The notes under the pieces were generated by a model that made no database searches, had not been told where the DNA came from, and saw only the letters and a program-made list of their open reading frames with translations. The position numbers and the translations under genes were made by a program. From Mesorhizobium sp. (lineage in GTDB: Bacteria > Pseudomonadota > Alphaproteobacteria > Rhizobiales > Rhizobiaceae), in assembly GCF_016793485.1 (NCBI RefSeq), contig NZ_JAEULZ010000051.1, positions 1 to 64,000 on the forward strand: a DNA stretch of 64,000 nt. Reading direction: 5' to 3'. This document shows, piece by piece, positions 39,256 to 60,608 of the stretch (the first letter of the stretch is position 1; every line of letters begins with the position of its first letter).

Positions 39256-39259
39256 CCTG

Positions 39260-41392: not shown

Positions 41393-41419
41393 ATTCGGCC
41401 GAAACGGGCTGCGGGTTAC
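41393..41419 (-). promoter_or_regulatory. ECF (SigF-type) promoter of the buf operon
   Basis: Minus strand: GTAACC (41414-41419), 16 bp, CGAAT (41393-41397), about 58 bases before bufA. This equals the known promoter pattern of SigF/NrsF-controlled genes in Caulobacter (GTAACC-16-CGAA). Confidence 0.8.
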
Positions 41420-41470
41420 GCAGCCCCAACACACGGTTTCGTGATCTCGGCTCCTCTGAACGCGCGGAGC

Positions 41471-41496
41471 GTAACTTTCGCCATCGGCCATCGAAT
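41471..41496 (+). promoter_or_regulatory. Possible ECF promoter of nrsF (15-bp spacer)
   Basis: GTAACT (41471-41476), 15 bp, CGAAT (41492-41496), 22 bases before nrsF. One base shorter in the spacer than the buf promoter on the other strand, so weaker support. Confidence 0.45.
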
Positions 41497-41518
41497 TAGC
41501 GCGAAGAAGGCTCGTGGA

Positions 41519-42160
41519 ATGACGATGGACACAATCAGGCTCATCGAAATGCTTGCCGGAGACAAACGGCAGTGGCCGCCTGACCCTACCTTCGCCTTGC
41601 GAAGAGCGACAGGCCTTGCGATCGCACTTGCGGCAGCCATCATCTTCCTGACGCTCAGCATCAGGCCCGATCTGGCTATTGTCGCCAAGACACCGGGGTT
41701 TGCGTGGAAGCTCGCCGCAACGGTGTCGCTGGGGGTGAGCGCATTCGGCCTGGTCTTGCGGGTGTCTCGACCGGGGGACGAATGGCGCCTGGCGGCTGCA
41801 AATCTGACGGTTGCGCCTATGGTGCTCGCGATGGGGATTGCCTCCGACTTCCTTCCACGGTCGGCGATTCTGTCCTCCGTATCGACCAATCCAAACGGTT
41901 TCGTGTGTCTCGCCAGCATCGTTTTAGCTGGCCTTGCCCCCTTTGGTATCATCGTTGCTGCGCTGCGGCAGGGGGCACCAACAAATCCGGCCTTGGCGGG
42001 GGCGGTCGCGGGACTTTTGGCAGGCGGCATAGCTGCCACCTTCTTCATTGCTCACTGCGTGAGCGATTCATTACTGTTCGTGGCCACGTGGTACACGTTG
42101 GCCAGCGTGACACTGGCTGCGCTGGGTGCGGCGGTCGCTCTTCGACTGGTCCGTTGGTAA
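41519..42160 (+). CDS. NrsF-type anti-sigma factor (DUF1109)
   Basis: 213 residues; ATG at 41519 or 41525. After a cytoplasmic start with the family hallmark RQWPPDPTFALRRA there are six membrane helices. NrsF proteins hold a SigF-type ECF sigma factor at the inner membrane until a metal or redox signal arrives. It is divergent from the buf operon, but no sigma gene is adjacent upstream, where one is normally found; a broken merA follows its stop. Confidence 0.88.
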   Translation: MTMDTIRLIEMLAGDKRQWPPDPTFALRRATGLAIALAAAIIFLTLSIRPDLAIVAKTPGFAWKLAATVSLGVSAFGLVLRVSRPGDEWRLAAANLTVAPMVLAMGIASDFLPRSAILSSVSTNPNGFVCLASIVLAGLAPFGIIVAALRQGAPTNPALAGAVAGLLAGGIAATFFIAHCVSDSLLFVATWYTLASVTLAALGAAVALRLVRW

Positions 42161-42169
42161 AACCGGAAC

Positions 42170-43026
<857 letters not shown>

Positions 43027-43314: not shown

Positions 43315-43821
43315 GTGGAGAACCATCTTGTTCTGATCGAGGCCGCCCGCCACGGCGATCGTGTAGCCTTGGAGCGTCTACTCGCCATTAGCCAACCAGA
43401 CATTCGACGATTCGCACAGTCGCAATGTGCCGGGAGCGATACGGATGACGCCGTCCAGGAAACGCTCTGGCTCGTGTATCAACGTATCGGCGCGCTGCGA
43501 ACGGTCACGTCGTTTTCGGCCTGGGTCTTCTCGATCGTCCGGCGGGAATGCAGCCGGTTGTGGCGGCAGATGCATGGTCAGACCGAACTGCCGGCGGACG
43601 ATCATCCGGCCTTCGTGTATCGGCCGGAGCCGGAATTGCGCGAGGATTTGATTGCGGCAATCCATTCGCTGCCGGACAGGCACCGCGAGGTGATCGTGCT
43701 GCGGGATATTCGGGAGTTCTCGATCAGCGAGATCGCGGTCGAGCTCCGCCTGTCGCGCGAGGCCGTCAAGAGCCGCATCCATCGCGCCCGCTTGATGATC
43801 CGCGAATATCTCGAGGACTAG
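43315..43821 (+). CDS. ECF-family RNA polymerase sigma factor
   Basis: 168 residues from the GTG at 43315 (GGAG upstream). Region 2 is visible in DIRRFAQSQCAGSDTDDAVQ and ETLWLVYQRIGAL, region 4 in LPDRHREVIVLRDIREFSIS and AVELRLSREAVKSRIHRARL. No anti-sigma gene follows directly; instead a small basic protein and a YiiX-type hydrolase are coupled to it. A broken relative of its N-terminus lies at 23614-23823. Confidence 0.92.
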   Translation: MENHLVLIEAARHGDRVALERLLAISQPDIRRFAQSQCAGSDTDDAVQETLWLVYQRIGALRTVTSFSAWVFSIVRRECSRLWRQMHGQTELPADDHPAFVYRPEPELREDLIAAIHSLPDRHREVIVLRDIREFSISEIAVELRLSREAVKSRIHRARLMIREYLED

Positions 43822-43823
43822 GA

Positions 43824-44069
43824 ATGCCGAGTTCCGAGCAATCTCCGCGGCGAAAGACCCTTCGCCCTCACAGCAAGAAGGAGAGGACCGTAAGCGCTTG
43901 TGCGCGCTCGGGGACCTACAGAAGCGTGGCGAACCTCGTCGCAGGTCGTGAACGTTGCGCTGTGCGAGATGCAGCGTTTTCGCCGGCACGGGATCGCGCA
44001 AACCGCGCGCCGAAGCGGCGCCTTGAACCCGAAACCAAGACCGTTCGTCGGCGGGAGGGATTGAAATGA
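43824..44069 (+). CDS. Small basic hypothetical protein
   Basis: 81 residues, MPSSEQSPRRKTLRPHSKKE onward, strongly basic and probably disordered. Its ATG is 2 bases after the sigma factor stop, and its own stop overlaps the next start (ATGA at 44066). This operon spacing is the main evidence that it is real. No family recognised. Confidence 0.45.
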   Translation: MPSSEQSPRRKTLRPHSKKERTVSACARSGTYRSVANLVAGRERCAVRDAAFSPARDRANRAPKRRLEPETKTVRRREGLK

Positions 44070-44842
44070 ACCGTCTGTCCCGCCAGGTCGGTACTCTGCT
44101 ATCGCGCTACCTCAATGCGAGGGTGCGTGGCCCCTACCCCCATCCGGCGGCGGATCTCGACGCCATGCGCCAACTGCTGCAGCCCGCGGACGTGATTTTG
44201 GTCGAAGGAGACCGTCGAATCAGCGGCGCCATCAAGTACCTCACCCAGTCAACCTGGTCTCACGCGGTGCTCTTTGTGGGCGAGCGCGGTGGCGTCGATG
44301 CAGACGGGCGCGTTCGTGCTCTCGCTGAGGCTGACACCGAGCATGGGATACGAGCATTTCCCCTTGACGAGCTCAAGGGCTACCACCTCCGCATCTGTCG
44401 GCCAGCCGGGCTGTCTCCGGAGGACGCCCGCCGCGTGATCGACTATGTGCTGGCCAGACTCGGCGACCGTTACGATCTCAAGAATGTGGTCGACCTTGCA
44501 CGCTACCTGCTGCCGACGCCGCCGGTGCCGGCTCCTTGGAGGAGGCGCATGCTGGCATTGGGCAGCGGCGACCCGACGCGAGCCATTTGTTCAACGCTGA
44601 TTGCCCAGGCTTTCCAGTCGGTTGGCTTTCCAATCCTGCCCGTGATCAGCGCCGAGGCAGGCTCCGTACCGGACTGTCGCGATTGTGTGCGCGAAATCTA
44701 TCACATTCGCCATCATAGCCTTTTCGTGCCGCGGGATTTCGACGTGTCGCCATACTTCTCCGTAATCAAGCCAACATTGATGCATACCATCGACTACCGG
44801 ACCTTGACCTGGGCAAAGGTCGATCAGACGGTAGGTTCGTGA
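44066..44842 (+). CDS. YiiX/YebB-like NlpC/P60-superfamily hydrolase
   Basis: 258 residues, no signal peptide. Residues 40-180 follow the permuted papain-like fold: ADVILVEGDRRISGAIKYLT, catalytic H66 in STWSHAVLFVGE, and C175 in AICSTLIAQAFQSVGFPILP. Relatives are amidases or lipid-modifying thiol hydrolases. It is coupled to the ECF sigma gene through the small ORF; with no export signal it probably acts in the cytoplasm or on the inner membrane face. Confidence 0.85.
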   Translation: MNRLSRQVGTLLSRYLNARVRGPYPHPAADLDAMRQLLQPADVILVEGDRRISGAIKYLTQSTWSHAVLFVGERGGVDADGRVRALAEADTEHGIRAFPLDELKGYHLRICRPAGLSPEDARRVIDYVLARLGDRYDLKNVVDLARYLLPTPPVPAPWRRRMLALGSGDPTRAICSTLIAQAFQSVGFPILPVISAEAGSVPDCRDCVREIYHIRHHSLFVPRDFDVSPYFSVIKPTLMHTIDYRTLTWAKVDQTVGS

Positions 44843-45074: not shown

Positions 45075-45644
45075 ATGACCGGCATTCCCGGGAACAGCCA
45101 GCACCTCGGCGATCTCATGCGATCCGCGCAAGAGGGCGACGGCAAAGCCTACCTTGAGTTGCTTCGAGCGATCACACCGATGCTGCGGGCGACCGCTCGC
45201 CGGCAACTCTCCGTCTATAATCGTCAGGAAGTGGAAGATGTCGTGCAGGACATCCTGATGTCGCTGCACGCCGCCATGGCAACCTACGATCCCGAGCGGC
45301 CATTCATACCCTGGCTGATGGGAATCGCCCGCAACCGCGTTGCCGATGCGGTTCGCCGTTACGCCCGGCGGGCAGCGCACGAGCAAGTCGTCGAGACCGT
45401 CCCCGAAACCTTTTTTGATCCCGGAGCGAATATATCAGCGGAGGTGTACGGCGATCCCGAGGCGTTGCGGCGGGCCATCGATGGTCTACCCCACCAGCAG
45501 CGCCGGGCAATGGAGTTGTTGAAGCTGCGCGAAATGTCTCTGAAGGAGGCGGCAGCCATCAGCGGCACGAGCGTCGGCGCTCTGAAGATCGCCGTGCACA
45601 GGGCCATGGGAACGTTGCGAGAAGTGCTGAGCAAAGGGACCTGA
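45075..45644 (+). CDS. ECF sigma factor paired with NrsF (SigF-like)
   Basis: 189 residues from the ATG at 45075. Region 2: RQEVEDVVQDILMSLHAAMA and PFIPWLMGIARNRVADAVRR. Region 4: LPHQQRRAMELLKLREMSLK and AISGTSVGALKIAVHRAM. The next gene, 2 bases on, is an NrsF-type anti-sigma factor, the arrangement of the Caulobacter SigF system that responds to metal and oxidative stress. It is the best candidate to read the GTAACC-16-CGAA promoters in this window. Confidence 0.92.
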   Translation: MTGIPGNSQHLGDLMRSAQEGDGKAYLELLRAITPMLRATARRQLSVYNRQEVEDVVQDILMSLHAAMATYDPERPFIPWLMGIARNRVADAVRRYARRAAHEQVVETVPETFFDPGANISAEVYGDPEALRRAIDGLPHQQRRAMELLKLREMSLKEAAAISGTSVGALKIAVHRAMGTLREVLSKGT

Positions 45645-45646
45645 AC

Positions 45647-46303
45647 TTGGAAACGGATGATCTGATCGAGCGCCTGGCGACGCGCCACAAGCCGATCCGC
45701 CGTCTGCCGCCGCCACGGAAACGGACTCTGCACTGGCTGTCGATTGCGCTGTGCGGCGTGGCAGCGGTCGTGGCACTGATGTCGCCGCGGGACGATCTGG
45801 CCGCAAAACTGACCGATAATCGGTTCTTGGTCGAAGAGATGGCCGCGCTCGCCACCGCGGTAGCGGCGGCGTTCTCGGCGTTCTGCCTGATCATTCCCGG
45901 CCAAAGCCGAGCCGTGGCTTTGCTCCCCGCGCCACCGTTGGCGTTATGGCTGGGCAGCCTCGGACAAGGATGTTGGCAGGCTTGGCTCAGGTACGGCCAG
46001 GAGGCCTGGCGGCTCTCGCCCGATTGGGTCTGTTTACCCGCAATTGCTATAGTCGGCGCGATACCAGCTTTGACGATGGTCGCGATGCTTCAGAAAGGCG
46101 CGCCGATTGCCCCACGAATGACAGTCATGCTGGGCGCGTTGGCCGCCGCAGCTCTCGGAAACGTCGGGTTGCGCCTGTTCCATCCACAGGATGCCAGTCT
46201 CATGGTTCTTGTGTGGCAATTCGGAAGCGTGGCGCTCCTGTCTCTACTTGCAGGTTGGGGCGGCCGCCAGATACTGGCCTGGCGACACCTTGGGAACGCC
46301 TGA
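45647..46303 (+). CDS. NrsF-type anti-sigma factor (DUF1109)
   Basis: 218 residues from a TTG at 45647, 2 bases after the sigma gene stop. Cytoplasmic N-terminus (TDDLIERLATRHKPIRRLPP), then six membrane helices. Two cysteines in the membrane part (SAFCLI, GQGCWQ, SPDWVCLP nearby) may sense metal, as conserved Cys pairs do in Caulobacter NrsF. An IS630-type element is inserted two bases past its stop. Confidence 0.9.
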   Translation: METDDLIERLATRHKPIRRLPPPRKRTLHWLSIALCGVAAVVALMSPRDDLAAKLTDNRFLVEEMAALATAVAAAFSAFCLIIPGQSRAVALLPAPPLALWLGSLGQGCWQAWLRYGQEAWRLSPDWVCLPAIAIVGAIPALTMVAMLQKGAPIAPRMTVMLGALAAAALGNVGLRLFHPQDASLMVLVWQFGSVALLSLLAGWGGRQILAWRHLGNA

Positions 46304-46954: not shown

Positions 46955-47031
46955 AGCGCGTGAGGGGCTGTCAAGTCCGCTTTGGGCTCGTTGCCGCCAT
47001 CTGATAGTTTCTGTCGGATTTTGGCCGGGGC

Positions 47032-48045
47032 TTAGCGGGGTGAAGACAACGCTTGGAACCCACGGTTTCTGGCGGCGATGATGTCGTCGGGGTCGGCGCG
47101 CCAGATAAACGGCTTGGCTTCGGTGATGTTGTGTTCGGCGATGAAGCGATTGATCGCGGCTTGCAGGTCGACGACCGAGTGGAACACGCCGTGTTTGAGC
47201 CTGCGCCGCGTCAGTTTCGCGAAGAACCCCTCCACCGCGTTCAGCCAGGATGACGATGTCGGGATGAAGTGGAACGTCCAGCGCGGATGCCGTACCAGCC
47301 AGGCCCGCACTTTGGAATGTTTGTGGGTACAGTAGTTGTCGAGGATGACGTGGATGGCCTTGCCCTTGGGGACGTCCCGTTCGATCTGGTTCAGGAACCG
47401 GATGAACTCCTGATGCCGGTGGCGCTGCATGTTCTGGCCGATGACCGATCCGTCGAGCACGTTGAGCGCGGCAAAGAGCGTGGTCGTGCCGTTGCGCTTG
47501 TAGTCGTGGGTCATGGTCGGGCCGCGCCCCTTCTTCAGTGGCAGGCCGGGCTGGGTCCGGTCAAGCGCCTGTATTTGCGCCTTTTCATCCACCGACAGCA
47601 CAACCGCATGGGCGGGCGGCGAGACGTAGAGCCCCACCACATCGTGCAGTTTCTCGGCGAAGGCCCGGTCATTTGATAACTTGAACTGACGCCAGCGATG
47701 CGGGCTCAGCCCATGCGCCTTCCAGATTTCCCGTACCGTGGAGGCGGCCAGCCCGACCGCCTCGCCCACCTTCTCGTCCGACGTCCTGGGAGTTCCCGGC
47801 GGGCGCGTCTTCTCTTGCAGCAGGCCATCGACACCCTCGGCCATGAACCGTTCCTGCCAGCGCCAGACGCAGGTCTTGGACTTGCCTGCGGCGGCCATGA
47901 TCGATGTTGTTCCGGCTCCATCGGCGCTCAAAAGAACGATACGACAGCGCCAGACATGCTTCTGCCGCGAGGACGGGTGCGAAATGATCGCCTCAAGCCG
48001 AGATCGATCCTCGCGTAAGACCGTGAAAGATATTCCTGTGCGCAT
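47032..48045 (-). CDS. IS630-family transposase, probable internal deletion
   Basis: 337 residues from the ATG at 48045 (MRTGISFTVLREDRSRLEAI); a GTG at 48060 is in frame. The N-terminal helix-turn-helix (AAGKSKTCVWRWQERF) and the DDE catalytic parts (VVLSVDEKAQIQALDR; VILDNYCTHKH; SSSWLNAVEGFFAKL) are present. Around residues 93-103 TSDEKVGEAVGLAASTV appears to lack about 30 residues found in relatives between the linker and AxAVGxSxSSV (the stretch with LTLAxPPxxxTHWT). The reading frame stays open, but activity is doubtful. Confidence 0.9.
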   Translation of the reverse strand: MRTGISFTVLREDRSRLEAIISHPSSRQKHVWRCRIVLLSADGAGTTSIMAAAGKSKTCVWRWQERFMAEGVDGLLQEKTRPPGTPRTSDEKVGEAVGLAASTVREIWKAHGLSPHRWRQFKLSNDRAFAEKLHDVVGLYVSPPAHAVVLSVDEKAQIQALDRTQPGLPLKKGRGPTMTHDYKRNGTTTLFAALNVLDGSVIGQNMQRHRHQEFIRFLNQIERDVPKGKAIHVILDNYCTHKHSKVRAWLVRHPRWTFHFIPTSSSWLNAVEGFFAKLTRRRLKHGVFHSVVDLQAAINRFIAEHNITEAKPFIWRADPDDIIAARNRGFQALSSPR

Positions 48046-48192
48046 CAGTATGACTCGCACAGAGAAAGCCCGAACGGAATCCCAATTCGGACTCCTTCGT
48101 CCCGCTCAATCCACTAGGTCCATCGTACGCGCTCGCCGGCAACGGCTTGGCCTAAAATCCGGCGCTCTTCCCAACCGGACTGCAGCAGCGCT

Positions 48193-48219
48193 GTAACTTT
48201 CCGTCCTTGACACGCGAAC
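48193..48219 (+). promoter_or_regulatory. ECF-type promoter of the DUF3047-cyclase genes
   Basis: GTAACT (48193-48198), 16 bp, CGAAC (48215-48219), 39 bases before the DUF3047 start. Same pattern as the buf promoter with one change in each box. Confidence 0.6.
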
Positions 48220-48258
48220 TAACCTGCAGACCACCGTGAACGTGGCGAGGGCGAAGCA

Positions 48259-48933
48259 GTGAAGCAAGGAGATTCGACGTTGAGGCTGATCTGCATTCTC
48301 TTGTCTGTCATCGTTGTGAACTTCCCGCTTGAGCGAGCGGCCGGCCAGGACATACCGGTCGGTTCTTTTTCGCAACGCTCCCTCTCGGGCTGGAGCAGCC
48401 GCTCCTTCAAAGGCGAGACCAAGTACGAGTTGGTCGAGGATGCCAATCTGCGAACCGTCGTGCTAGCAGCGGTGGCGGATGCAGCAGCGTCGGGCCGCTA
48501 CCGAAAGATCAGGATCGATTTGAAAAAAACACCGTTCCTCAACTGGTCGTGGAAAGTGACTGACATATTCCCGGGGATCGACGAAAGGCATAAGTCGGGT
48601 GACGACTTCCCCGCGCGGATTTATGTCGTCGTCGAGCGCGGCCTGCTCGGAGCCCGGTCTCTATCCCTCAACTACGTATGGGCGAGCCAACACGCCGCAG
48701 GAAGCGAGTGGCCAAGCCCCTACACGGCTCAGGTCCGTCTGATCGCGGTCGATAGCGGGCAAAAGGGGCTCGGCTCCTGGGTCCAATACAAGCGCAACGT
48801 CCGGGACGACCTGCGGAGGGTCTTCAGCGAGGAGATCGGTGAGATCGATGCGGTTGCGATCATGACGGATGCCGATGATCACAAGGGGCGCGCGCAGACC
48901 TTCTACGGTGACATCTGGTTTAGTCCAGAATAA
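48259..48933 (+). CDS. DUF3047 exported protein
   Basis: 224 residues from a GTG at 48259, with a signal peptide (LRLICILLSVIVVNFPL, cleavage near RAAG). Conserved DUF3047 blocks: FLNWSWKVTDIFPGIDERHK, DDFPARIYVVVERG, LNYVWASQHAAGSEWPSPYT and EIDAVAIMTDADDHKGRAQT. The fold is thought to be carbohydrate-binding-like; function unknown. A matching ECF promoter precedes it and a cyclase gene follows 72 bp on. Confidence 0.88.
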   Translation: MKQGDSTLRLICILLSVIVVNFPLERAAGQDIPVGSFSQRSLSGWSSRSFKGETKYELVEDANLRTVVLAAVADAAASGRYRKIRIDLKKTPFLNWSWKVTDIFPGIDERHKSGDDFPARIYVVVERGLLGARSLSLNYVWASQHAAGSEWPSPYTAQVRLIAVDSGQKGLGSWVQYKRNVRDDLRRVFSEEIGEIDAVAIMTDADDHKGRAQTFYGDIWFSPE

Positions 48934-49005: not shown

Positions 49006-51057
49006 ATGCGGGTAAGGGTCAGCGTCGCCATTTCGGTTTTCCTGCTGTGCTGCATTGCGGTCAGCGCGATAGCAGTGCATGTCCTGTGGCGACGAACTGC
49101 CGACAGCAACAGTCGTCTTCTCGTGGCGACCCTCGACCACCAGATCACAGAAACCGTACGCAACGAAGTGGCGGGACGCATCGCAAGCGCGGAAGCGGCG
49201 TTCGGTGCGGTTCGCACAATCTTCCTGCAGAACGTGATCGAGACGCGACAGGCCGATAAGCGCGAGTTCGTTTTCCTATCCCAACTGCAAGCGCAGCCCT
49301 CGCTTTCGTGGGTCGCTTTCGGATGGCCCGATTCGACGTTCTTCGCCTCCCACAAGCTTGGCGACGGCGAACTGGAAATGATGGAGATCTACGTCAAGGA
49401 CGGCGCCTGGACCCGGCGCGTCGACCACTACAAGGTCGTGCCGGGCGACATCGAGTTCTACCAGAGGAAGTTCGAGCCGACCGACTACCTCGTCACCGAC
49501 CATGCCTGGTATCAACAGGCCATTAAGGCCAATGCGCCCGCGTGGTTCATCGTCACCGAACACCCGGTTGCCACGCGCTCGGCGGCCGCGTTTGCGGGCC
49601 CCATCGACGTCTACCAGAGACGTCAGGGCGTGCTCGCCACGATGATCGAACTCGACCGTCTCTCACGTTTCCTCGGCTTCCTTGAGGTCGCCCGCACCGG
49701 AGCCGCCTTCATCATGTCGTCCGAGGGCGACATCGTAGCTGGCCCGGATAAGACCGCCGACGAGGTCAATGGCGCCGATCTTGGCGGTCATCCCCTTCTC
49801 GGGGTAGCGCATCAACTAGGACAACGTCTGGCAAGCCGCACGGAGGCCGGCTACGACGAGGCGATCAGGGTACGTCTCATTGATCAGGGTGTGTCCTACA
49901 ACGTCACCCTGACGCCGCTCGACTTCCTCGACTGGCATGTTGCGGTCATCATTCCAGAAGCCGAGTTTCTCGCCGAGATCGATCGCACCACTACCCGCCT
50001 GGCCTTCACGTTGCTGGCGCTCGTTGTGGTGGCGGGTATCGTGTCGGTAACGATTGCACAACGCCTTCTGGCCGAGCCCCTTCGCGCGGTTGTGGAGGAT
50101 CTACGAGCTGTCGAAACCTTCGAACTAAACCGTATTTCGAAACGCCATTCATGGTTGGTCGAACTCGACACGCTTTCCGTCGCGTTGGTTCGCATGGCAA
50201 CCGGACTGAGCGCATTCGCGAAATACATTCCCACCGATCTCGTGCGGACGCTGGTAACGGAGGGCATCGAAGCAAGGCCCGGCGGGGAAATGAAGTCCCT
50301 CACGATATTTTTCGCCGACATCGCGGGATTTACCGGCATGTCAGAACGGCTCGGCAAGGATATCGTACCGGTGATCAGCAGCTACCTCGATCTCGCCTCG
50401 CAGGCGATCGAAGCCGAGGGCGGCACCATCGACAAGTTCATTGGCGACGCCGTGATGGCCTTCTGGGGCGCTCCGCGTGGAAGAGACGATCACGCCATTG
50501 CCGCTTGTAGGGCGGCGCTGGGCATCTGCCGGGCCGTGGCGCTTAATGGGCCCAGAGACGATGCGGGCAATGCGCTCACCGTCCGCATCGGGATCAACAG
50601 CGGGGTCGCCCTCGTCGGCAACATCGGGTCCGCCACGCACCTTGGCTACACCGCCATCGGCGATGCGGTGAACGTTGCAAGCCGGCTCGAAACCGCCAAC
50701 AAGCTCTACGGGACGGGCATCATAATGGGTGAAGAGGTCCGCAAGGCTGCTGGCCCCGACATCATCGTACGCGAACTCGATCGCATCGCCGTCTACGGCC
50801 GCGAAGGTGGAATCGCCATTTTCGAGCTTATCGGCTTGTCCGGGGAGAAGCGGCCGTCATGGATCGACTCGTATGAAGCCGGCCTTGAGCTTTACAGGGC
50901 GCGACGGTGGCGCGACGCCGAGAGCAAGTTCCTGGAGGTTGTGGCAGCCCGGGGCGATGACGGTCCGTCCCAGCGCATGATCACTCGCTGCCAATCCCTG
51001 TGTCAGCACTCGCCGGACGATGGCTGGGAGCCGATCACTGTGATGGAATCAAAATAG
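49006..51057 (+). CDS. Membrane-bound class III adenylate/guanylate cyclase with Cache-like sensor
   Basis: 683 residues. One membrane helix at about 5-27, a periplasmic sensor of roughly 310 residues (with FGWPDSTFFASHKLGDG and AWYQQAIKANAPAWFIV, Cache-like), a second helix at about 330-352 (LAFTLLALVVVAGIVSVTIA), a HAMP-like linker and a class III catalytic domain. The metal Asp residues are in IFFADIAGFTGMSERLG and KFIGDAVMAFWGAP; transition-state region GINSGVALVGNIGSATHLGY. It turns an envelope signal into cAMP or cGMP. Follows the DUF3047 gene, probably co-transcribed. Confidence 0.93.
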   Translation: MRVRVSVAISVFLLCCIAVSAIAVHVLWRRTADSNSRLLVATLDHQITETVRNEVAGRIASAEAAFGAVRTIFLQNVIETRQADKREFVFLSQLQAQPSLSWVAFGWPDSTFFASHKLGDGELEMMEIYVKDGAWTRRVDHYKVVPGDIEFYQRKFEPTDYLVTDHAWYQQAIKANAPAWFIVTEHPVATRSAAAFAGPIDVYQRRQGVLATMIELDRLSRFLGFLEVARTGAAFIMSSEGDIVAGPDKTADEVNGADLGGHPLLGVAHQLGQRLASRTEAGYDEAIRVRLIDQGVSYNVTLTPLDFLDWHVAVIIPEAEFLAEIDRTTTRLAFTLLALVVVAGIVSVTIAQRLLAEPLRAVVEDLRAVETFELNRISKRHSWLVELDTLSVALVRMATGLSAFAKYIPTDLVRTLVTEGIEARPGGEMKSLTIFFADIAGFTGMSERLGKDIVPVISSYLDLASQAIEAEGGTIDKFIGDAVMAFWGAPRGRDDHAIAACRAALGICRAVALNGPRDDAGNALTVRIGINSGVALVGNIGSATHLGYTAIGDAVNVASRLETANKLYGTGIIMGEEVRKAAGPDIIVRELDRIAVYGREGGIAIFELIGLSGEKRPSWIDSYEAGLELYRARRWRDAESKFLEVVAARGDDGPSQRMITRCQSLCQHSPDDGWEPITVMESK

Positions 51058-52415: not shown

Positions 52416-52991
52416 ATGAACACCGCATTTCCCCACCTTGTTCCGCGCCGGGCCGTACCTGAACTTAGGGTGCCGGTTGTCGGAGGACGCACCTACGACA
52501 TTCGGAACGAGACGCCGACAGCATTCTCCCTGGTCGTCTTCTACCGCGGGCTGCATTGTCCGGTCTGCAAAACCCAACTCAAGGACCTCGACGCAAAGAT
52601 CGGCGAGTTCGATCGGCGGGGCGTGTCTGTTGTTGCGATCTCGACAGACGTCGAGGAGCGCGCGGTCATGACGAACCTCGAATGGCAATTGCCACAGCTT
52701 CGCATAGGTTACGGCCTGTCACTGCCGGCAGCGCGCGAATGGGGCCTCTACATCTCTCGCGGCCGTGGAAAGACCTCGCTTGGAATCGAGGAGCCGGTGC
52801 TATTTTCAGAACCCGCACTTTATCTGGTGCGCCCTGACGGCACCCTTTTCTTTGGCAGCGTCCAGACCATGCCGTTTGCGCGCCCTCATTTTTCCGACAT
52901 CCTCGGGGCGATCGACTACGTCCTGAAGACGAATTATCCGGCGCGCGGCGAGGTCGACGGAGTAACCTTTGAGTCTGCCGCCGCGAAATAG
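52416..52991 (+). CDS. AhpC/TSA-family peroxiredoxin-like protein
   Basis: 191 residues, no signal peptide. Thioredoxin fold with the redox site FYRGLHCPVCKTQLKDLD (CxxC), then VVAISTDVEERA and PALYLVRPDGTLFFGSVQTM. The CPVC pair is of the kind found in peroxiredoxin-like proteins that pair with oxidoreductases. It stands 61 bp before the VTT-FAD fusion gene in the same direction, so it may share a redox path with it. Confidence 0.88.
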   Translation: MNTAFPHLVPRRAVPELRVPVVGGRTYDIRNETPTAFSLVVFYRGLHCPVCKTQLKDLDAKIGEFDRRGVSVVAISTDVEERAVMTNLEWQLPQLRIGYGLSLPAAREWGLYISRGRGKTSLGIEEPVLFSEPALYLVRPDGTLFFGSVQTMPFARPHFSDILGAIDYVLKTNYPARGEVDGVTFESAAAK

Positions 52992-53052: not shown

Positions 53053-55200
53053 ATGCATGGAACTAGGGTTGCTCGCCGCCGGACGAAGACCGTTGGCGTC
53101 CTTCTTCTTCTGGCCGCAATCCTTGTCCTGGCATTGCTTGCAAGGGGGTATCTCGACCCCCATGGGGTTGCGGCCAGGGTTACATCCGCAAGAGACTGGA
53201 TCGCACTGAACCCGGGCAGCGCGGCGTTTCTGTTCGCGATCACCTACATTGTAGTGACAGGCCTGTCGCTGCCGGGCGCAACAGCTCTTTCGCTCCTTGG
53301 CGGCAGCCTTTTCGGCCTCTGGCTGGGAACACTGCTGGTATCCTTTGCGAGCACGATCGGCGCGACAATCTCCATGGTCGTCGCACGCTTCTTTCTACGC
53401 GGTTCGGTGGAGCGCCGCTTTCCCGATGCCGTCGCCAAGGTTGATCGCGGTGTTGCGCTGGATGGCACGCGCTATCTGTTCGCGTTGCGCCTCGTGCCAG
53501 TGTTCCCCTTCTTTCTCGTCAATGTCGCGATGGGCCTGACTCGCATGCCCGTCGTCACCTTCGCGTGGGTGAGCCTGCTTGGCGCGCTCCCCGCGACGAT
53601 CCTTTATGTGAACGCAGGCGAGCAACTCGGCTCGATCGAGAATGCCGGCGACATATTGAGCCCACGGATCGTTCTCGCTTTCGCCGCGTTGGCTGCGCTG
53701 CCGTTCGCCGCCAAAGCCGCGGGTGCCTGGTGGGGCAATCGAAACGCGTTGCGAAAATGGAGACGGCCCCGCCGCTTCGACTACAACCTGATTGTGATCG
53801 GCGCGGGCTCTGCCGGGCTCGTGACCGCCTATATCGCGGCGGCCGCCCGCGCTCGTGTCGCACTTATCGAACAAGGAAAGATGGGTGGCGATTGTCTGAA
53901 CACCGGCTGCATCCCGTCAAAGACCCTGATTCGGTCCGCGAAGCTCGCCAAAGAGGGCAATCATCCCGAGAGGTTCGGACTCAGCGGACGGCTGGACCCT
54001 GATTTTCCGGCGATCATGCGCCGGATCGAGAGGACGATAGCGCGCGTTGCACCACATGACTCGGTCGAGCGCTACAGCAGGCTTGGCGTCGATGTGGTCA
54101 AAGGACGGGCCAAGCTCATCGATCCCTGGACTATCGATGTTGATGGCAGGCGCCTGACCGGACGACGAATCGTGCTCGCAACCGGTGCCGAACCAGCTGT
54201 CCCGCCGATTCCAGGGCTCGCTGACGTCGAGCCTCTGACCTCCGAAACTCTCTGGAGCCTGACCGAGATGCCGGAACGGCTGCTCGTCCTGGGCGGCGGG
54301 GCGATCGGGTGTGAGCTCGCGCAAAGCTTTGCCCGCCTCGGATGCCGTACGACGCTGGTGGAAGCTCAGCCCCGGCTTCTGGCGCGCGAGGACGAGGAGA
54401 TTAGCGACGCGATGCTCGCCAACCTCGAGGCCGACAGCGTGACCGTCATCACCGGCGCCAGCGTCCGTTCATTCGAACCGGGCGCCCAAACCCGATTTGC
54501 CGTGCTTTCCGACGACCAACGTTTGCCCTTCGATCGTGTCCTCGTCGCGATCGGTCGCCGTCCGCGCACACGGGGGTTTGGGCTAGAGGAACTTGGCCTT
54601 CTGGATGACGGTCACCTGATCGTCGACGAGCGTCTGCGGACACGGCTCCCGACCGTCTATGCCGCTGGCGACGTCATTGGACGTCTGCAGTTCACGCACG
54701 CGGCCGGCCACTATGCCTGGTTCGCAGCGATGAACGCGCTCTTCGGTAGCTTCAAGACCTGGAGGTTGCAGACAAAGGCATTCCCAACGGTGATCTACAC
54801 CGATCCCGAGATCGCACGCGTCGGACTGAGCGAAGCAGAGGCGCGCGAGCGCTCTATCGCATATGAGGTTACACGGTACGAACTCGCTGAACTCGACCGC
54901 GCAATTGCCGACGGTGCGAATGACGGCTTCGTCAAGGTACTGACGGTTCCGGGCCGTGACCGGATCCTCGGCGCTACAATCGTCGGAGCCCGAGCCGGCG
55001 ACATGCTCGGCGAATTCACGCTGGCGATGCAGCATGGCCTCGGGCTCAACGCGATCCTTCGGACCGTGCACCCTTATCCCGGCTGGACGGAGGCAGCAAA
55101 GGCCTTGGCCGGAGAATGGCGACGGTCTCATATGCCTGGTTGGGCGCTCAATCTGTCGGCCCGGGTCCTCCAATGGCAAAGGGGTGACACGAATGTTTGA
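53053..55200 (+). CDS. Fusion of a VTT (TVP38/TMEM64) membrane domain and a MerA-like FAD disulfide oxidoreductase
   Basis: 715 residues from the ATG at 53053 (a GTG at 53020 adds 11). Residues 1-235 form a TVP38/TMEM64 (DedA-like, VTT) domain with GLSLPGATALSLLGGSLFGL, then FALRLVPVFPFFLVNVAMGL. Residues 240-715 are a pyridine nucleotide-disulfide oxidoreductase: NLIVIGAGSAGLVTAY, redox pair GGDCLNTGCIPSK (C281, C286), LVLGGGAIGCELAQSF, PTVYAAGDVIGR, dimerisation domain with KAFPTVIYTDPEIARVGLSE. There is no C-terminal Cys pair, so it is not a mercuric reductase. It probably reduces a disulfide or quinone-like substrate at the membrane; substrate unknown. Confidence 0.92.
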   Translation: MHGTRVARRRTKTVGVLLLLAAILVLALLARGYLDPHGVAARVTSARDWIALNPGSAAFLFAITYIVVTGLSLPGATALSLLGGSLFGLWLGTLLVSFASTIGATISMVVARFFLRGSVERRFPDAVAKVDRGVALDGTRYLFALRLVPVFPFFLVNVAMGLTRMPVVTFAWVSLLGALPATILYVNAGEQLGSIENAGDILSPRIVLAFAALAALPFAAKAAGAWWGNRNALRKWRRPRRFDYNLIVIGAGSAGLVTAYIAAAARARVALIEQGKMGGDCLNTGCIPSKTLIRSAKLAKEGNHPERFGLSGRLDPDFPAIMRRIERTIARVAPHDSVERYSRLGVDVVKGRAKLIDPWTIDVDGRRLTGRRIVLATGAEPAVPPIPGLADVEPLTSETLWSLTEMPERLLVLGGGAIGCELAQSFARLGCRTTLVEAQPRLLAREDEEISDAMLANLEADSVTVITGASVRSFEPGAQTRFAVLSDDQRLPFDRVLVAIGRRPRTRGFGLEELGLLDDGHLIVDERLRTRLPTVYAAGDVIGRLQFTHAAGHYAWFAAMNALFGSFKTWRLQTKAFPTVIYTDPEIARVGLSEAEARERSIAYEVTRYELAELDRAIADGANDGFVKVLTVPGRDRILGATIVGARAGDMLGEFTLAMQHGLGLNAILRTVHPYPGWTEAAKALAGEWRRSHMPGWALNLSARVLQWQRGDTNV

Positions 55201-55891
55201 CCGTCACCTTCTGCCACTGCAGAAGCGCCTGCTGGAGCCGCCGGCGGCCCGTCTCGCGCAAGCCGGAATCTCTGCCGACACCGTCACCATTCTGGGGTTT
55301 GTCGTCGGGCTGGCGGTTGTTCCATTGCTGGCATACGGCCAATACACCGCAGCGTTGGCCGTCATCCTCGCCAACCGAGCACTCGACGGCCTTGACGGAG
55401 CGCTTGCACGGCGCACGCGGCCCACGGATCGCGGCGCATTCCTCGACATCGCGCTTGACTTCGTCTTCTACGCACTTGTGCCGTTCGGCTTTGCACTCGC
55501 CGATCCGGCTACGAACGCTCTACCCGCTGCGACGCTGCTGCTCGCCTTTGTCGGGACCGGCAGCAGCTTTCTCGCCTTTGCCGCGGTAGCTGCACGGCGG
55601 GGCATGTCGTCCGCGGCCTATCCGGGGAAGGGCTTCCACTACCTTGGTGGCTTGACCGAGGGAGCCGAAACGATCGCCGTCTTCATGGCGATGTGCCTCT
55701 GGCCGAGTGCGTTTGAAATCATCGCATACGCTTTCGCCGCGCTGTGCGGCCTGACGACTCTTACCCGCTGGTGGTGGGGCTGGCGAGCCTTCGCTGCCGA
55801 TACCCCACGTGGCACGGGCGATCGGCCGACCTCGTCAACTGCAAGCAAGACCCGAAAGGGGAAAGCAACCGGAGTGGAACTCGCATCATGA
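55193..55891 (+). CDS. CDP-alcohol phosphatidyltransferase-family protein (YnjF-like)
   Basis: 232 residues; the ATG overlaps the fusion gene stop by 8 bases. The family motif is complete: ALDGLDGALARRTRPTDRGA then FLDIALD, i.e. DGxxAR-x8-Gxxx-Dxxx-D. Six membrane helices. Such enzymes move a phospho-alcohol from CDP-diacylglycerol. In E. coli YnjF, of unknown substrate, lies beside ynjBCD, as here. The last 35 residues are a basic, disordered tail. Confidence 0.92.
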   Translation: MFDRHLLPLQKRLLEPPAARLAQAGISADTVTILGFVVGLAVVPLLAYGQYTAALAVILANRALDGLDGALARRTRPTDRGAFLDIALDFVFYALVPFGFALADPATNALPAATLLLAFVGTGSSFLAFAAVAARRGMSSAAYPGKGFHYLGGLTEGAETIAVFMAMCLWPSAFEIIAYAFAALCGLTTLTRWWWGWRAFAADTPRGTGDRPTSSTASKTRKGKATGVELAS

Positions 55892-57105
55892 GATACAAAA
55901 TTAGAAGCTCCTTCCTCGGCCTTTTGGCGACCGGACTGGCCATCATCGTTGGTCATGTTCCCGCCTACGCCTCCAACACGTGGGACGAGATCGTTTCAAG
56001 AGCACGCGGCCAGACCGTTTACTGGAACGCGTGGGGCGGCGACGAGAGAACCAACGCTTTCATCGACTGGGTCGGACAGCAGGTGCGAGCCCGGCACGGG
56101 ATCACGATCAGGCACGTCAAACTCGCGGACACCGCCGAAGCCGTCTCGCGCGTCATTGCTGAAAAGACGGCCGGCCGCGATGATGACGGTTCTGTCGACC
56201 TGATCTGGATCAATGGGCCGAATTTCCTGTCGATGAAAGAAAACGGCCTTCTCTACGGTCCGTTCACCCAGCTGCTGCCCAACTATCGTTACGTCGATGT
56301 ATTGGGCAAACCCTCGAACGTCACGGACTTCACGATCCCGGTGGATGGCATGGAGTCGCCGTGGCGTCTGGCCCAGTTCGTGTTCAACTACAACTCCGCT
56401 CGCGTGAAGGATGCACCACGCACGATCAAGGAATTCGTGCCTTGGGCCAAGGCACATCCTGGCCGTTTCACGCATCCTGATGTGCGCGATTTCATGGGAG
56501 CCACCTTTCTCAAGCAGGCGCTCATAGAGTTGGCGCCTGATCGGAAAAGGCTCCAGCAGCCGGTTAGCGACGAGGTTTTCGCTGAGGTGACGGCACCGCT
56601 CTGGTCCTGGTACGATCAGTTGAAGCCCGCGCTTTGGCGCGCAGGCGAGCAGTTTCCGGCGAACGGCCCGGCCGCCAAGCAGCTCCTCAACGACGGCGAG
56701 ATTGATCTCTCCATGTCGTTTGACCCTGCCGAAGCGGCAGCCTCGATCGAATCGGGCCTGCTGCCCGACACCGTGCGAACCTACACTCTTTCCGGGGGGA
56801 CGATCGGCAATACGAGCTTCGTCACCATCCCCTACAACTCGCCGCACAAGGAGGCGGCCATGGTCGTGGCCGACTTCTTGCTAGACCCGGCAACCCAGGC
56901 CCATGCACAGGACATCCGTGTGCTTGGCAGCTTCACTGTTCTGGCCGTGGAAAGCCTGGCTGCCGATCAGCGTCGGCTCTTCGCCGATCTGCCGGCGAAC
57001 CCGGCGCTCCCTACCAACGCGGACTTGGGACCAGTGCTTCTCGAGCCACACCCGTCCTGGATGACAAGGATCACCAACGAATGGAAGCAGCGTTACGGCG
57101 GATAG
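55888..57105 (+). CDS. ABC transporter substrate-binding protein (YnjB-like)
   Basis: 405 residues from the ATG at 55888, overlapping the previous stop. Signal peptide to about residue 28 (VPAYAS). The mature part, TVYWNAWGGDERTNAFIDWV onward with DLIWINGPNFLSMKENGLLYG, is the YnjB pattern of the family 1-like binding proteins. The ligand is unknown. The next gene begins 25 bases before its stop. Confidence 0.92.
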   Translation: MRYKIRSSFLGLLATGLAIIVGHVPAYASNTWDEIVSRARGQTVYWNAWGGDERTNAFIDWVGQQVRARHGITIRHVKLADTAEAVSRVIAEKTAGRDDDGSVDLIWINGPNFLSMKENGLLYGPFTQLLPNYRYVDVLGKPSNVTDFTIPVDGMESPWRLAQFVFNYNSARVKDAPRTIKEFVPWAKAHPGRFTHPDVRDFMGATFLKQALIELAPDRKRLQQPVSDEVFAEVTAPLWSWYDQLKPALWRAGEQFPANGPAAKQLLNDGEIDLSMSFDPAEAAASIESGLLPDTVRTYTLSGGTIGNTSFVTIPYNSPHKEAAMVVADFLLDPATQAHAQDIRVLGSFTVLAVESLAADQRRLFADLPANPALPTNADLGPVLLEPHPSWMTRITNEWKQRYGG

Positions 57106-58832
57106 GGTTTCGGCCACGCGGCCTTGCCCCGCGCCTGCCGAGGCTACGTTTGTTGCATGTGGTCGGCGCAGTCGCTCTTGGAGTGCTCGGTGCTCCGATC
57201 GCGGCTGGCCTTGTCTTCACGGTCCTGCCCTCGTTCGGCTATCTGCCATCGATCGGCGGCGACACGTTGAGTCTGCAGCCATGGCGGGAACTTTTCGGTA
57301 CGCCGGGTTTAGCCACGAGCTTATGGCTCACATTGTCGACGGGCCTTGCCGCGACCGTTTTGGCATTGGTTTTGTCGTTCAGCTTCTGCGCGGTGGTCCA
57401 CAATCGCATGCGCAACCGCGGTGCCGATGGCCTGCTGGCCCCGCTGCTTGCCGCACCCCACGCCGCAATCGCGATTGGACTCGCTTTCATGATAGCGCCG
57501 AGCGGCTGGCTGTTCCGGATCACCAGCCCGTGGCTGACGGGATATGAAGTGCCGCCTGATCTCGCCACCGTTCAGGATCAATGGGGAGTGGCCATCGTTA
57601 TTGGCCTGCTGATCAAGGAACTGCCTTTCCTGCTGATCGTCATCCTCGCGGCTTTGAACCAGATTCCCGTGGATCAGCAGATGCGGGCGGGACGTGCGCT
57701 TGGCTACGGGCAAGGTATCGTCTGGATCAAGATCATTGCACCCCAGGTCTACGCACAGATACGGCTGCCCGTTTATGTCGTCCTGGTCTTTTCGCTCTCC
57801 GTCGTCGACATGGCATTGATCCTCGCGCCGACCAACCCCCCGCCGCTATCTGTCGTCGCCCTGAAATGGTTCATGTCTTCAGATGTCGCACGATTGATGC
57901 CCGCTGCGGCGGCAGCCACGCTTCAGTTGCTGGTGGCCGCCGCTGCGGTCGGTTGTTGGCGCCTCGGCGAACGGGGCATCGCATGGGGTGGCCGCTGGTG
58001 GACGATGAGGGGCGGCCGTGGCGTGACGGGCGAGCCGGGTCTGAAACTTGCCGCGGCCTTCACGATGAGCGTCCTCATGCTTGGGTTTGGTTCTCTTGCT
58101 GCTCTCGCTACCTGGTCCGTGGCGTGGCGGTGGCCATTTCCCGATGCCCTACCGTCGACGTGGAGCCTCCAGATCTGGAGCCGTCAGATCCACGCTCTCG
58201 CCTGGCCGTTCGGAAACACATTAGCGTTGGCAACCGTCACGACCGTGATCGCGGTTCTGCTCGCGATCGTCTGGCTTGAAGCAGAAGATCGTGGGGGTGT
58301 GAAGCGAAGGACCGCGGTGTTCCATCCAGTCTACGTTCCTCTGCTGCTTCCGCAGATCGCCTTCATGTTCGGAGCCCAGGTGCTCGTCGCGAAGATGCGT
58401 ATCGATGGTACTTTCCTGGCGGTGACCTGGGCGCACCTTCTGTTCGTGTTCCCCTATGTGCTGCTAGCGCTCGCGGACCCATGGAAAGCCCTCGATCCGC
58501 GCTACGCGCGGTCCGCGTCGGCACTCGGCGTTTCGCCGAGCGCCACGTTGATACGAGTCAAACTACCCATACTGCTCAGGCCCATCCTGGTCGCGTCGGC
58601 GATCGGCTTCGCGGTGAGCGTCGCCCAATACCTGCCAACGCTCTTCGTCGGCGGCGGACGCGTCGCCACGCTCACGACGGAAGCCGTGGCGATGGCAAGC
58701 GGGGGAGATCGCCGCGTCGTCGGCGTTCTGGCCTTCCTGCAGATCCTTCTGCCCCTGACCGTCTACCTGGCGGCGCTGCTCATCCCGCGTATCGTGTTCG
58801 CCAATCGGAAAGGACTTGCGGGGCGCGCATGA
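57081..58832 (+). CDS. ABC transporter permease, double-length (YnjC-like)
   Basis: 583 residues with about 12 membrane helices in two homologous halves. The EAA-type cytoplasmic loops are visible in each: QQMRAGRALGYGQGIVWIKI (first half) and RYARSASALGVSPSATLIRV (second half), so one chain makes the whole channel, as in YnjC and in FbpB-type permeases. Start overlaps the binding protein gene; stop overlaps the ATPase gene start. Confidence 0.93.
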   Translation: MEAALRRIGFRPRGLAPRLPRLRLLHVVGAVALGVLGAPIAAGLVFTVLPSFGYLPSIGGDTLSLQPWRELFGTPGLATSLWLTLSTGLAATVLALVLSFSFCAVVHNRMRNRGADGLLAPLLAAPHAAIAIGLAFMIAPSGWLFRITSPWLTGYEVPPDLATVQDQWGVAIVIGLLIKELPFLLIVILAALNQIPVDQQMRAGRALGYGQGIVWIKIIAPQVYAQIRLPVYVVLVFSLSVVDMALILAPTNPPPLSVVALKWFMSSDVARLMPAAAAATLQLLVAAAAVGCWRLGERGIAWGGRWWTMRGGRGVTGEPGLKLAAAFTMSVLMLGFGSLAALATWSVAWRWPFPDALPSTWSLQIWSRQIHALAWPFGNTLALATVTTVIAVLLAIVWLEAEDRGGVKRRTAVFHPVYVPLLLPQIAFMFGAQVLVAKMRIDGTFLAVTWAHLLFVFPYVLLALADPWKALDPRYARSASALGVSPSATLIRVKLPILLRPILVASAIGFAVSVAQYLPTLFVGGGRVATLTTEAVAMASGGDRRVVGVLAFLQILLPLTVYLAALLIPRIVFANRKGLAGRA

Positions 58833-59500
58833 CGAATGCATTGATCATTCGCTCGGCGACGATTTCCATAGCTGGCAGGTCACTCGTCTCGAACCTGAGC
58901 CTCACCGTCGAACCCGGAACCGTCACGACGATCATGGGGCCGAGCGGATCGGGAAAATCCACCCTGATCGCCTTCATCGGCGGCCATCTGGACCGCTCCT
59001 TCCGCGCGACCGGTCGGGTTTTAGTCGGCAACCGCGACGTGACGGAACTGCCTCCCGAGCGGCGGGATATCGGCATGCTTTTCCAGGACGACCTCCTCTT
59101 CCCGCATCTTTCTGTCGGCGCGAATCTCTCTTTCGGCCTTTCAGCTTCCATCGAGAGTCGCCAGGCGAGGCGGGCGCTTGTTGTGAAGGCACTGGAGGAA
59201 GCCGATCTCGCTGGCTTCGAAGACAGGGATCCTGCAACACTCTCTGGCGGTCAGCGTGCCCGCATTGCCCTGATGAGGACGCTTCTGGCGGCGCCGAAAG
59301 CCTTGCTTCTCGACGAACCGTTCTCCAAGCTCGATTCGGAATTGCGGCGCGATTTCCGCCGCTTTGTGTTTGACCGGGCGACCGCTGGTCGGCTGCCCGT
59401 GCTGCTGGTCACCCATGATCCGGACGACGCCGCGGCAGCCAATGGCGAGATACTAATTCTGGGACATTCCGCTGAAACCCCTGCCATCACGCCAGTCTGA
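58829..59500 (+). CDS. ABC transporter ATP-binding protein (YnjD-like)
   Basis: 223 residues from the ATG at 58829. Walker A GPSGSGKST (about 38-46), Q-loop in GMLFQDDLLFPHLSV, signature LSGGQRARIALMRTLL, Walker B ALLLDEPFSKLD, H-loop LLVTHDPDD. Completes the YnjBCD-type importer, the last gene of the six-gene rightward run. Confidence 0.95.
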   Translation: MTNALIIRSATISIAGRSLVSNLSLTVEPGTVTTIMGPSGSGKSTLIAFIGGHLDRSFRATGRVLVGNRDVTELPPERRDIGMLFQDDLLFPHLSVGANLSFGLSASIESRQARRALVVKALEEADLAGFEDRDPATLSGGQRARIALMRTLLAAPKALLLDEPFSKLDSELRRDFRRFVFDRATAGRLPVLLVTHDPDDAAAANGEILILGHSAETPAITPV

Positions 59501-59535
59501 TGGCTGGCACCATCAATCTTGCGCCGGACTTTGAG

Positions 59536-60537
59536 CTATTGGCGGACCGGTCCCTCTTCCGTGTGGAGAACCCCGTCGGGCTCGAAGGCAAAGAATGCGA
59601 ACGCGAACGTTACGGTGTGCGGCACGTCTTCACCGTCGCGCTGCACCACGACATTGCCGACGTCGGCGCCGTGCGTGATGTCCGCCGTATCCAGCGCGGA
59701 AACCTGCCCCGGCCGCCAGGCGATGCTGAGATCCCCTGCCCTGACCGTGCGCTCGGCGCGTATAAGCGGAAGGGCCCAGGCTTCCTTGCCCACCACCACG
59801 ACGCGCATCATTGCAGGGACATTTTCCGGCAGGTCGCCGGTGAACAGGAACGGCCGCGGCGCCTGGTCGTAACCGACATACGGGTTGCTTCCATAGGCGC
59901 GAGAATGAGGATCGTTGGGGACCAGAATGCGGCCCTTCGGTGCGCGCTCGCGGAAGCTCTCCCATGATTCGAGGCGCGAAGGCAGCATTCTGAGCGTACG
60001 ACCCGCCAGTTCGCCGACGATCGCTTGGCCGCCGAACTGCTGCCACCAGCTTTCGGTCTGACGGTCGTACATGACGAGGTCCGAGTGGCGCAGCTTGCCT
60101 GTCGTGCCGAAATCGAGCGTCCGGTCGTCAAGGCGCCGGTCGAAGACGATGCCGGTGTTGCAGAGAGGACAGTAGGTCACGGTGACCGGAGTGCCGGCCA
60201 CCACGTCGTTGACGATCTCGTGCCACATCATCACGCGCAACGGATAGGCCCGCGCTTCCCCTGCAATAACGAGCGAAAGGACGGGTTCCTGCGGCGCGAG
60301 TTCGGTCGCCTCCGCGACCGGGATGAAGCTTGGATCGTCGATAGACGGAATGCCGTCCTTCGGCGGTCCCCCCGAGATGATTTCCGAAAGGTCGACCGTC
60401 GTCCTGGAGAAATCGGTTTGCGGCCATTCATGCTTCCATTGCTGTGCGATTTCGCTCTCAGCACGGGCGGTCGGCGCCAGAAGCAACGCTGCCAGCAAAA
60501 CAGTACATAGGTTCCGTCGTGGGTTCATTGTGCTCAC
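59536..60537 (-). CDS. DUF3179 exported protein
   Basis: 333 residues, signal peptide to about 27 (APTARA). DUF3179 hallmarks: SIDDPSFIPVAEA, ARAYPLRVMMWHEIVNDVVA, VTYCPLCNTGIVFDRRLDDR (CxxC), LVMYDRQTESWWQQFGGQAI, RAYGSNPYVGYD. Function unknown; the CPLC pair and the His suggest metal or redox chemistry in the periplasm. It converges on the ABC operon and has its own ECF-type promoter. Confidence 0.9.
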   Translation of the reverse strand: MSTMNPRRNLCTVLLAALLLAPTARAESEIAQQWKHEWPQTDFSRTTVDLSEIISGGPPKDGIPSIDDPSFIPVAEATELAPQEPVLSLVIAGEARAYPLRVMMWHEIVNDVVAGTPVTVTYCPLCNTGIVFDRRLDDRTLDFGTTGKLRHSDLVMYDRQTESWWQQFGGQAIVGELAGRTLRMLPSRLESWESFRERAPKGRILVPNDPHSRAYGSNPYVGYDQAPRPFLFTGDLPENVPAMMRVVVVGKEAWALPLIRAERTVRAGDLSIAWRPGQVSALDTADITHGADVGNVVVQRDGEDVPHTVTFAFAFFAFEPDGVLHTEEGPVRQ

Positions 60538-60581
60538 TCCGCTTCGCCGCGCCGGAAATCGCGCGCTCGTCCTTTTAAGAG

Positions 60582-60608
60582 GTTCGCGGGGGCGCCTGAT
60601 TTTGTTAC
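60582..60608 (-). promoter_or_regulatory. ECF-type promoter of the DUF3179 gene
   Basis: Minus strand: GTAACA (60603-60608), 16 bp, CGAAC (60582-60586), 45 bases before the start at 60537. Confidence 0.55.

Follow-up and report, generated by a model that had tools for sequence, protein, structure and literature searches.

A probable conjugative plasmid of Mesorhizobium appears to carry its own SigF/NrsF-type (ECF16) regulon behind a shared promoter

In Caulobacter crescentus, the extracytoplasmic function (ECF) sigma factor SigF, which with its anti-sigma factor NrsF forms a pair of group ECF16, reads the promoter GTAACC-N16-CGAA and responds to chromate and cadmium (PMC3511200). Here we describe a related arrangement in the first 64,000 nucleotides (the window) of contig NZ_JAEULZ010000051.1 of a Mesorhizobium sp. 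(GCF_016793485.1), where five promoter sites of this kind stand ahead of a bufferin operon, an anti-sigma gene and three further sets of genes, and where a SigF-like gene, sigB, encodes their likely reader (Table 1). The Caulobacter system shares with the window the promoter, a bufferin-type operon among its targets (DUF2282, DUF692, DUF2063, DoxX) and an NrsF protein. It differs in having the promoter ahead of sigF itself, in an NrsF with C131 and C181, and in its table of SigF-dependent genes, which as shown is without DUF3047, DUF3179 and VTT-MerA (PMC3511200). Single serine mutants of Caulobacter NrsF at C131 or C181 are still inducible, whereas the double mutant is not (PMC3511200).

Other described systems resemble the locus in different respects. 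RpoE7-EcfR7 of S. meliloti is likewise an ECF16 pair in a rhizobium, with a divergent DUF692/DUF2063 operon and TGTAAC...CGAA promoters, but rpoE7 itself has a promoter and two promoters are listed (PMC6180224). Bradyrhizobium japonicum EcfF-OsrA has an NrsF-type anti-sigma with two cysteines, of which C129 serves binding and C179 the response to H2O2, together with an autoregulated consensus promoter; the window's nrsF2 departs from OsrA in that histidine replaces C179 and a new cysteine stands elsewhere, and the targets differ (PMC3420878). Brucella melitensis BcrS-AbcS is an ECF16 pair with the consensus (T/C)GTAAC-N17-CGAA but turns on a methionine sulphoxide repair operon in a chlorine response (PMC8315932). 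Finally, the bufferin clusters called Buf1 combine DUF2282, MNIO, DUF2063 and DoxX with sigma and NrsF genes, as the window does, but DUF3179 and DUF3047, both present in the window, have no occurrences in the main text of the Buf1 paper (PMC12452194).

By comparison with these systems, we consider it probable that the contig carries a self-contained SigF/NrsF (ECF16) regulon. The membrane anti-sigma NrsF2 would hold sigB; periplasmic metal or thiol stress, sensed via the cysteines and perhaps the histidine of NrsF2, would free it; and sigB with RNA polymerase would then read the five GTAAC-N15/16-CGAA promoters. The response would comprise the bufferin operon with its copper-binding peptide, the DUF3047-cyclase pair, the VTT-MerA-like reductase with the ABC transporter, the CxxC protein DUF3179, and the extra anti-sigma nrsF1, whose induction would damp the response through negative feedback. 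A plasmid so equipped would deliver switch and targets in one, so that the response could run without host regulators, and DUF3047 and DUF3179 would find a regulatory context in a stress response linked to bufferins.

Table 1. Promoter sites and genes of the proposed regulon, in window coordinates.
Feature	Position	Strand	Evidence
Promoter GTAAC-16-CGAA, upstream of bufABC-doxX (bufferin) operon	41394-41419	-	pattern scan, weight matrix
Promoter with 15-bp spacer, upstream of nrsF1	41471-41495	+	pattern scan
Promoter GTAAC-16-CGAA, upstream of DUF3047-cyclase genes	48193-48218	+	pattern scan, weight matrix
Promoter GTAAC-16-CGAA, upstream of VTT-MerA-like reductase and ABC transporter genes	52962-52987	+	
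Promoter GTAAC-16-CGAA, upstream of DUF3179 gene	60583-60608	-	pattern scan
sigB, SigF-like ECF sigma, likely reader of the promoters	45075-45644	+	Pfam, tree, SigF search
nrsF2, partner anti-sigma of sigB; His179 for second conserved Cys, new Cys109	45647-46303	+	PF06532, 87.8 bits
nrsF1, NrsF-type anti-sigma, both conserved cysteines (C130, C180)	41519-42160	+	PF06532, 147.7 bits
sigA, second ECF sigma, outside SigF group	43315-43821	+	Pfam, tree
C92-family permuted papain-like protein, between sigA and sigB	44066-44842	+	PF05708, barely over cut-off
Bufferin operon: bufA (DUF2282), bufB (MNIO, MbnB family), bufC (DUF2063), doxX	38752-41349	-	Pfam
DUF3047 protein; N-terminal hydrophobic stretch and start codon both by eye	48280-48933	+	PF11249
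Guanylate/adenylate cyclase-type protein, possible dCache sensor	49006-51057	+	PF00211; dCache_1 below cut-off
VTT domain + MerA-like FAD/NAD disulphide oxidoreductase (pyridine-nucleotide oxidoreductase)	53053-55200	+	Pfam
ABC transporter genes (binding protein, permease, ATPase)	55744-59500	+	Pfam; permease domain below cut-off
DUF3179 protein, C-P-L-C motif; N-terminal hydrophobic stretch by eye	59536-60537	-	PF11376

An earlier note on this DNA had proposed such a regulon from three 16-bp-spacer sites, those ahead of bufA, the DUF3047-cyclase genes and the DUF3179 gene, and a 15-bp variant ahead of an nrsF gene. A scan for GTAAC-N17-CGAA, in which 16 bp separate a six-base box from CGAA, recovered all three of the former, and the 15-bp variant is also present; one site had been overlooked, and with it the operon of the VTT-MerA-like reductase joins the set. 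The window holds four exact matches, where shuffled sequences lead one to expect 0.31, and none of 100 shuffles gave four. These four sites lie 33-46 bp from the first possible start of an open reading frame (ORF). The one ahead of VTT-MerA overlaps the 3' end of the AhpC ORF, in its final codons, and precedes the VTT-MerA ORF by about 33 bp and the likely ATG of that ORF (53053) by about 65 bp. A match with a 13-bp spacer is also found in the window at 1772-1794 on the minus strand.

The pattern is over-represented in the window and not in the genome as a whole. Scanned on both strands for exact 16-bp-spacer sites only, the 5.2-Mb genome (52 contigs) gave 22 matches versus 32 for a reversed control. 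Placement differs between the window and the rest, with ORFs here being mechanical ones and not gene calls. Outside the window, 17 of the 18 exact matches fall within an ORF of at least 180 amino acids and none lies 100 bp or less ahead of a co-directional ORF of at least 100 amino acids; in the window, three of four are outside ORFs of at least 180 amino acids and all four lie within 100 bp ahead of an ORF (Fisher p 1.4e-4). The rate outside predicts 0.22 matches for the 64-kb window, and 0.067 for a 19.2-kb span, picked post hoc, that holds all four. The exact matches elsewhere in the genome look like chance. That the window sites are chance matches as well could be argued from how common the pattern is in these genomes, the whole-genome count falling below the reversed control here and in each of five relatives searched, but with four matches against 0.31, all ahead of genes, clustered, and kept in other genera, we regard this as extremely improbable.

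The window sites also stand out under a weight matrix built from 40 sites (31 with 16-bp and nine with 15-bp spacers) at 30 NrsF loci of other genomes in the order, these being the best-scoring loci (120 of 297 genomes had a match). The matrix, whose training sites all had exact GTAAC and CG(A/T)A and which is therefore biased toward the pattern, ranks the five sites 1, 2, 3, 4 and 6. Six window sites score at least 14, versus a mean of 0.6 in 20 first-order Markov sequences, with the six best kept per run.

The sites recur in other genomes. The cluster is syntenic in M. tianshanense (doxX-bufCBA, nrsF1, MerA-like, sigA, C92, sigB, nrsF2, DUF3047, cyclase, TetR, AhpC, VTT-MerA, ABC, DUF3179), where all five sites are present, that of nrsF1 with a 16-bp spacer, and where there are six matches in 21 kb, of which one falls within the cyclase gene. 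Aminobacter ciceronei has seven matches in 29 kb, each ahead of an ORF, the targets being two bufA-like genes and VTT-MerA, DUF3047, DUF3179, cyclase-like and patatin-like genes. At the bufA site, the core is kept in M. tianshanense and 13 of the 17 spacer bases are identical. Elsewhere the spacer has diverged around an intact core: for the DUF3179 promoter, the core is 9/9 in every comparison while the spacer agrees at 5/17 positions with M. tianshanense, 5/17 with Aminobacter and 8/17 with R129_N, and for the DUF3047 site the core is 9/9 and the spacer 5/17 in A. ciceronei, with the site there about 205 bp ahead of the DUF3047 ORF. The DUF3047 and VTT-MerA sites say little when compared with M. 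tianshanense, since the spacer itself is nearly identical (16/17).

These comparisons bear on whether the true targets are limited to bufA and nrsF1, with the sites of DUF3047, VTT-MerA and DUF3179 merely inherited with the cluster and functionless. Bufferin-type operons are known targets of SigF and RpoE7 (PMC3511200, PMC6180224), and the near-identity of the DUF3047 and VTT-MerA sites in M. tianshanense would fit passive inheritance. However, an intact core amid diverged spacers at DUF3179, and also at DUF3047 in Aminobacter despite the distance from its ORF, argues otherwise, and we think so restricted a regulon unlikely. The VTT-MerA site is present in all three genomes in which AhpC is followed by VTT-MerA. 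At the three AhpC genes where no VTT-MerA was found to follow, it is absent each time, and in M00, the closest of the three contrasts, the first box reads GTAAA.

The same promoter accompanies SigF/NrsF loci of other genomes. Thirty best-scoring canonical loci were fetched, with a sigma gene found in 29, and 29 NrsF2-type loci, 25 of them with a sigma gene. A co-directional site stands just ahead of the sigma gene at 26/29 canonical loci and a divergent one at 11, so that 27/29 have at least one; among the NrsF2-type loci, none of 25 has a co-directional site and 15 have a divergent one. The motif is found at none of the 30 loci of the order's best-scoring DUF3179 genes. Within 1.5-kb flanks, a BufA match occurs at 11/29 NrsF2-type and 4/30 canonical loci. 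On a plasmid of Paraburkholderia fungorum, an NrsF2-type gene lies between mer and buf operons, and a 15-bp-spacer site stands just ahead of bufA. Plasmid carriage of sigma/NrsF2-like pairs is not unique to our contig, since NrsF2-like genes occur on 68 other plasmid records, 67 of these genes being less than 60% identical.

As to which sigma factor reads the promoters, sigB is the likely one: when a canonical SigF from another genome in the family was used as query, sigB came out as the genome's best match at 86 bits, ahead of sigA at 44 and four weaker matches at 39 or less. The ECF16 organisation is also seen, in that a sigma with regions 2 and 4 is followed, 2 bp on, by the NrsF gene nrsF2, and the promoter ahead of the target genes fits the ECF16 form (T/C)GTAAC-N16/17-CGAA. 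The SigF/NrsF-type pair that the earlier note placed at 45075-46303 contains this best match, but its sigma belongs to a supported clade of its own. When 64 sigma sequences were placed in a tree, sigB grouped with its relatives from M. tianshanense and Aminobacter and with all NrsF2-type rows (30 rows, support 96/99). Canonical SigF rows form several branches, and the sigB clade may be either sister to these or nested among them; two rows (L234, L247) have long branches. Alternatively, sigA, or both sigmas, could read the promoters while sigB serves other genes. The sigA gene keeps its place in the block, with the order sigA-C92-sigB the same in M. tianshanense and Aminobacter, and a sigA relative in M00 adjoins a DUF3179 gene bearing the promoter (L213). 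Yet in the tree sigA stands well apart from the SigF group (branch 4.13), SigF-type and NrsF2-type loci in general come with the motif, and in regions 2 and 4.2 it is sigB that by eye resembles canonical SigF and sigA that does not, which leaves this alternative quite unlikely in our judgement.

Several observations weigh against a regulon read by sigB from all five promoters. Neither sigA nor sigB has a promoter within 250 bp ahead of its ORF among the 25 best matrix sites and the exact scan, and the 25 NrsF2-type sigma genes all lack one in front as well, so the usual autoregulation is missing; the lack of a promoter at sigB is, however, in keeping with its NrsF2-type clade. Even with sigB as the reader, sigA could also act on some of the promoters. 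High matrix scores arise by chance, as one of five random runs shown reached 22.3, and the genome's top-scoring exact match (22.05, L007) lies inside a gene; matrix rank 5 in the window (45405-45430) falls within sigB. Among DUF3179 relatives (the best 80 of 442), only five have the site upstream of the gene (L099, L100, L101, L102, L156), 44-104 bp from the position matching the query's first residue, and L099-L102 are the four closest of the 80 (72-85% identity; L100 and L101 have the same sequence, leaving three distinct). The DUF3179 gene of L167, near buf and sigF genes, is without an exact site. Because the 52962 site forms part of the AhpC coding sequence, it does not count as conserved independently of the protein, and the other two contrasting AhpC are only 55% and 67% identical, with a C-terminus that differs throughout. 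Distant loci mostly lack the motif anywhere (present at 2/29 DUF3047 and 1/29 VTT loci), which makes the promoter link a lineage trait and not a family trait. Finally, fusions of S. meliloti rpoE7 and of its target showed no response to H2O2, cadmium or chromate (PMC6180224), and a metal or redox inducer is therefore not to be assumed here. On balance, the chance-like matches elsewhere in the genome, the motif at canonical SigF/NrsF loci, the sites shared across genera, and sigB itself still favour the shared regulon suggested by the earlier note.

Two of the sites just mentioned deserve description. The one inside sigB reads GAAAC-16-CGAA, and a Paraburkholderia sigma gene has GTAAC-16-CGAA near the same place (L310:4760); such a site may be a promoter within the gene that serves the anti-sigma, or else a codon effect. 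L156 has identical GTAAC-16-CGAA copies at 8857-8882 and 9846-9871, the second just ahead of its DUF3179 gene.

The two anti-sigmas of the window differ in their cysteines. nrsF1 has both of the cysteines expected of ECF16, whereas nrsF2 keeps the first only. In an NrsF alignment, the first cysteine is present in 30/30 canonical and 25/25 NrsF2-type rows; the second is present in 30/30 canonical rows and in none of the 25 NrsF2-type rows, all of which have histidine there, and a new cysteine upstream of the first occurs in 23/25 NrsF2-type rows versus 1/30 canonical ones. The NrsF2-type rows were picked by similarity to the window's nrsF2 and are top-scoring matches only (three rows were unusable and one locus was without a protein). 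The Paraburkholderia NrsF2-type protein also has the new Cys/His set, and in a crude profile of NrsF2 the six helices were not individually resolved. The alignment thereby brings to light an NrsF clade in which histidine replaces the second cysteine and a new cysteine stands elsewhere, a pattern that is not mentioned in those parts of the open-access literature on known NrsF, ECF16 and DUF1109 systems that were available to us. Loss of the second cysteine need not abolish sensing, since either single serine mutant of Caulobacter NrsF is still inducible.

nrsF1, a canonical NrsF, itself stands behind the promoter, and in both the window and M. tianshanense it has no adjoining sigma gene, nor any between promoter and nrsF1. 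One might imagine a single plasmid sigma held by two anti-sigmas, with NrsF2 sensing metal through its Cys-Cys-His set and NrsF1, made only once the regulon is on, sensing oxidation through the classical cysteines. Metal would then turn the system on, and lasting thiol stress would be needed to keep it so, making a two-signal, self-resetting device that moves between hosts; we offer this as a doubtful idea. The genome has three NrsF matches, two in the window and one on another contig (L217, G000 contig C5, 67371-67955), the last a 194-amino-acid ORF closer to nrsF2, with no SigF-like gene found in the 15 kb around it. In another genome (L088, G222), an NrsF gene and a buf operon point away from each other, no sigma gene was found next to this NrsF gene, and a sigma-NrsF pair lies elsewhere in that genome (L089); this is perhaps a second orphan NrsF, and no site with a 14-18-bp spacer was found ahead of its bufA on the plus strand.

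The earlier note's placing of the regulon on a mobile element is in keeping with the contig (99,374 bases), which has a ParA-type gene, repB and repC, with TraG and a MobA/MobL relaxase to the left of the cargo and TrbI, CagX and a CagE/VirB4-type gene to its right. These are the replication, relaxase and type IV secretion genes of a repABC conjugative plasmid, which the contig most likely is. The relaxase-helicase at 7456-10764 (MobA/MobL) has a BID domain and a Fic-domain protein at 724-2169 has a weak BID match just below the cut-off; both signals fit a conjugative type IV system.

Among the target genes, the bufferin operon has the full Buf1 set by Pfam: a DUF2282 precursor, the MNIO enzyme, a DUF2063 partner and DoxX. 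In the DUF3179 protein, Cys123, Cys126 and His106 are identical in all 81 rows (the query and the 80 best of 442 homologues). Published tables of selenoproteins list DUF3179 with a UxxC/T motif (PMC9312934, PMC13188914), which suggests a redox or metal role for its C-P-L-C motif; its predicted fold gave no firm structural match. Regulation of DUF3179 or DUF3047 by a sigma factor was not found in the accessible portions of the open-access literature on these families.

Several features of the neighbourhood may be recorded. At 42291-42989 there is, by eye, an apparent fragment of a MerA-like reductase, and the matching stretch of M. tianshanense has a long MerA-like ORF (L209:13639-15879). An IS630-type transposase gene (47032-48060) separates a lipocalin-like gene from the DUF3047 promoter, which in M. 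tianshanense lies about 100 bp after nrsF2. A putative glucoamylase-family gene (PF10091) is found near the cluster in two genomes (L209:6983-8224 and L215:7154-8539).

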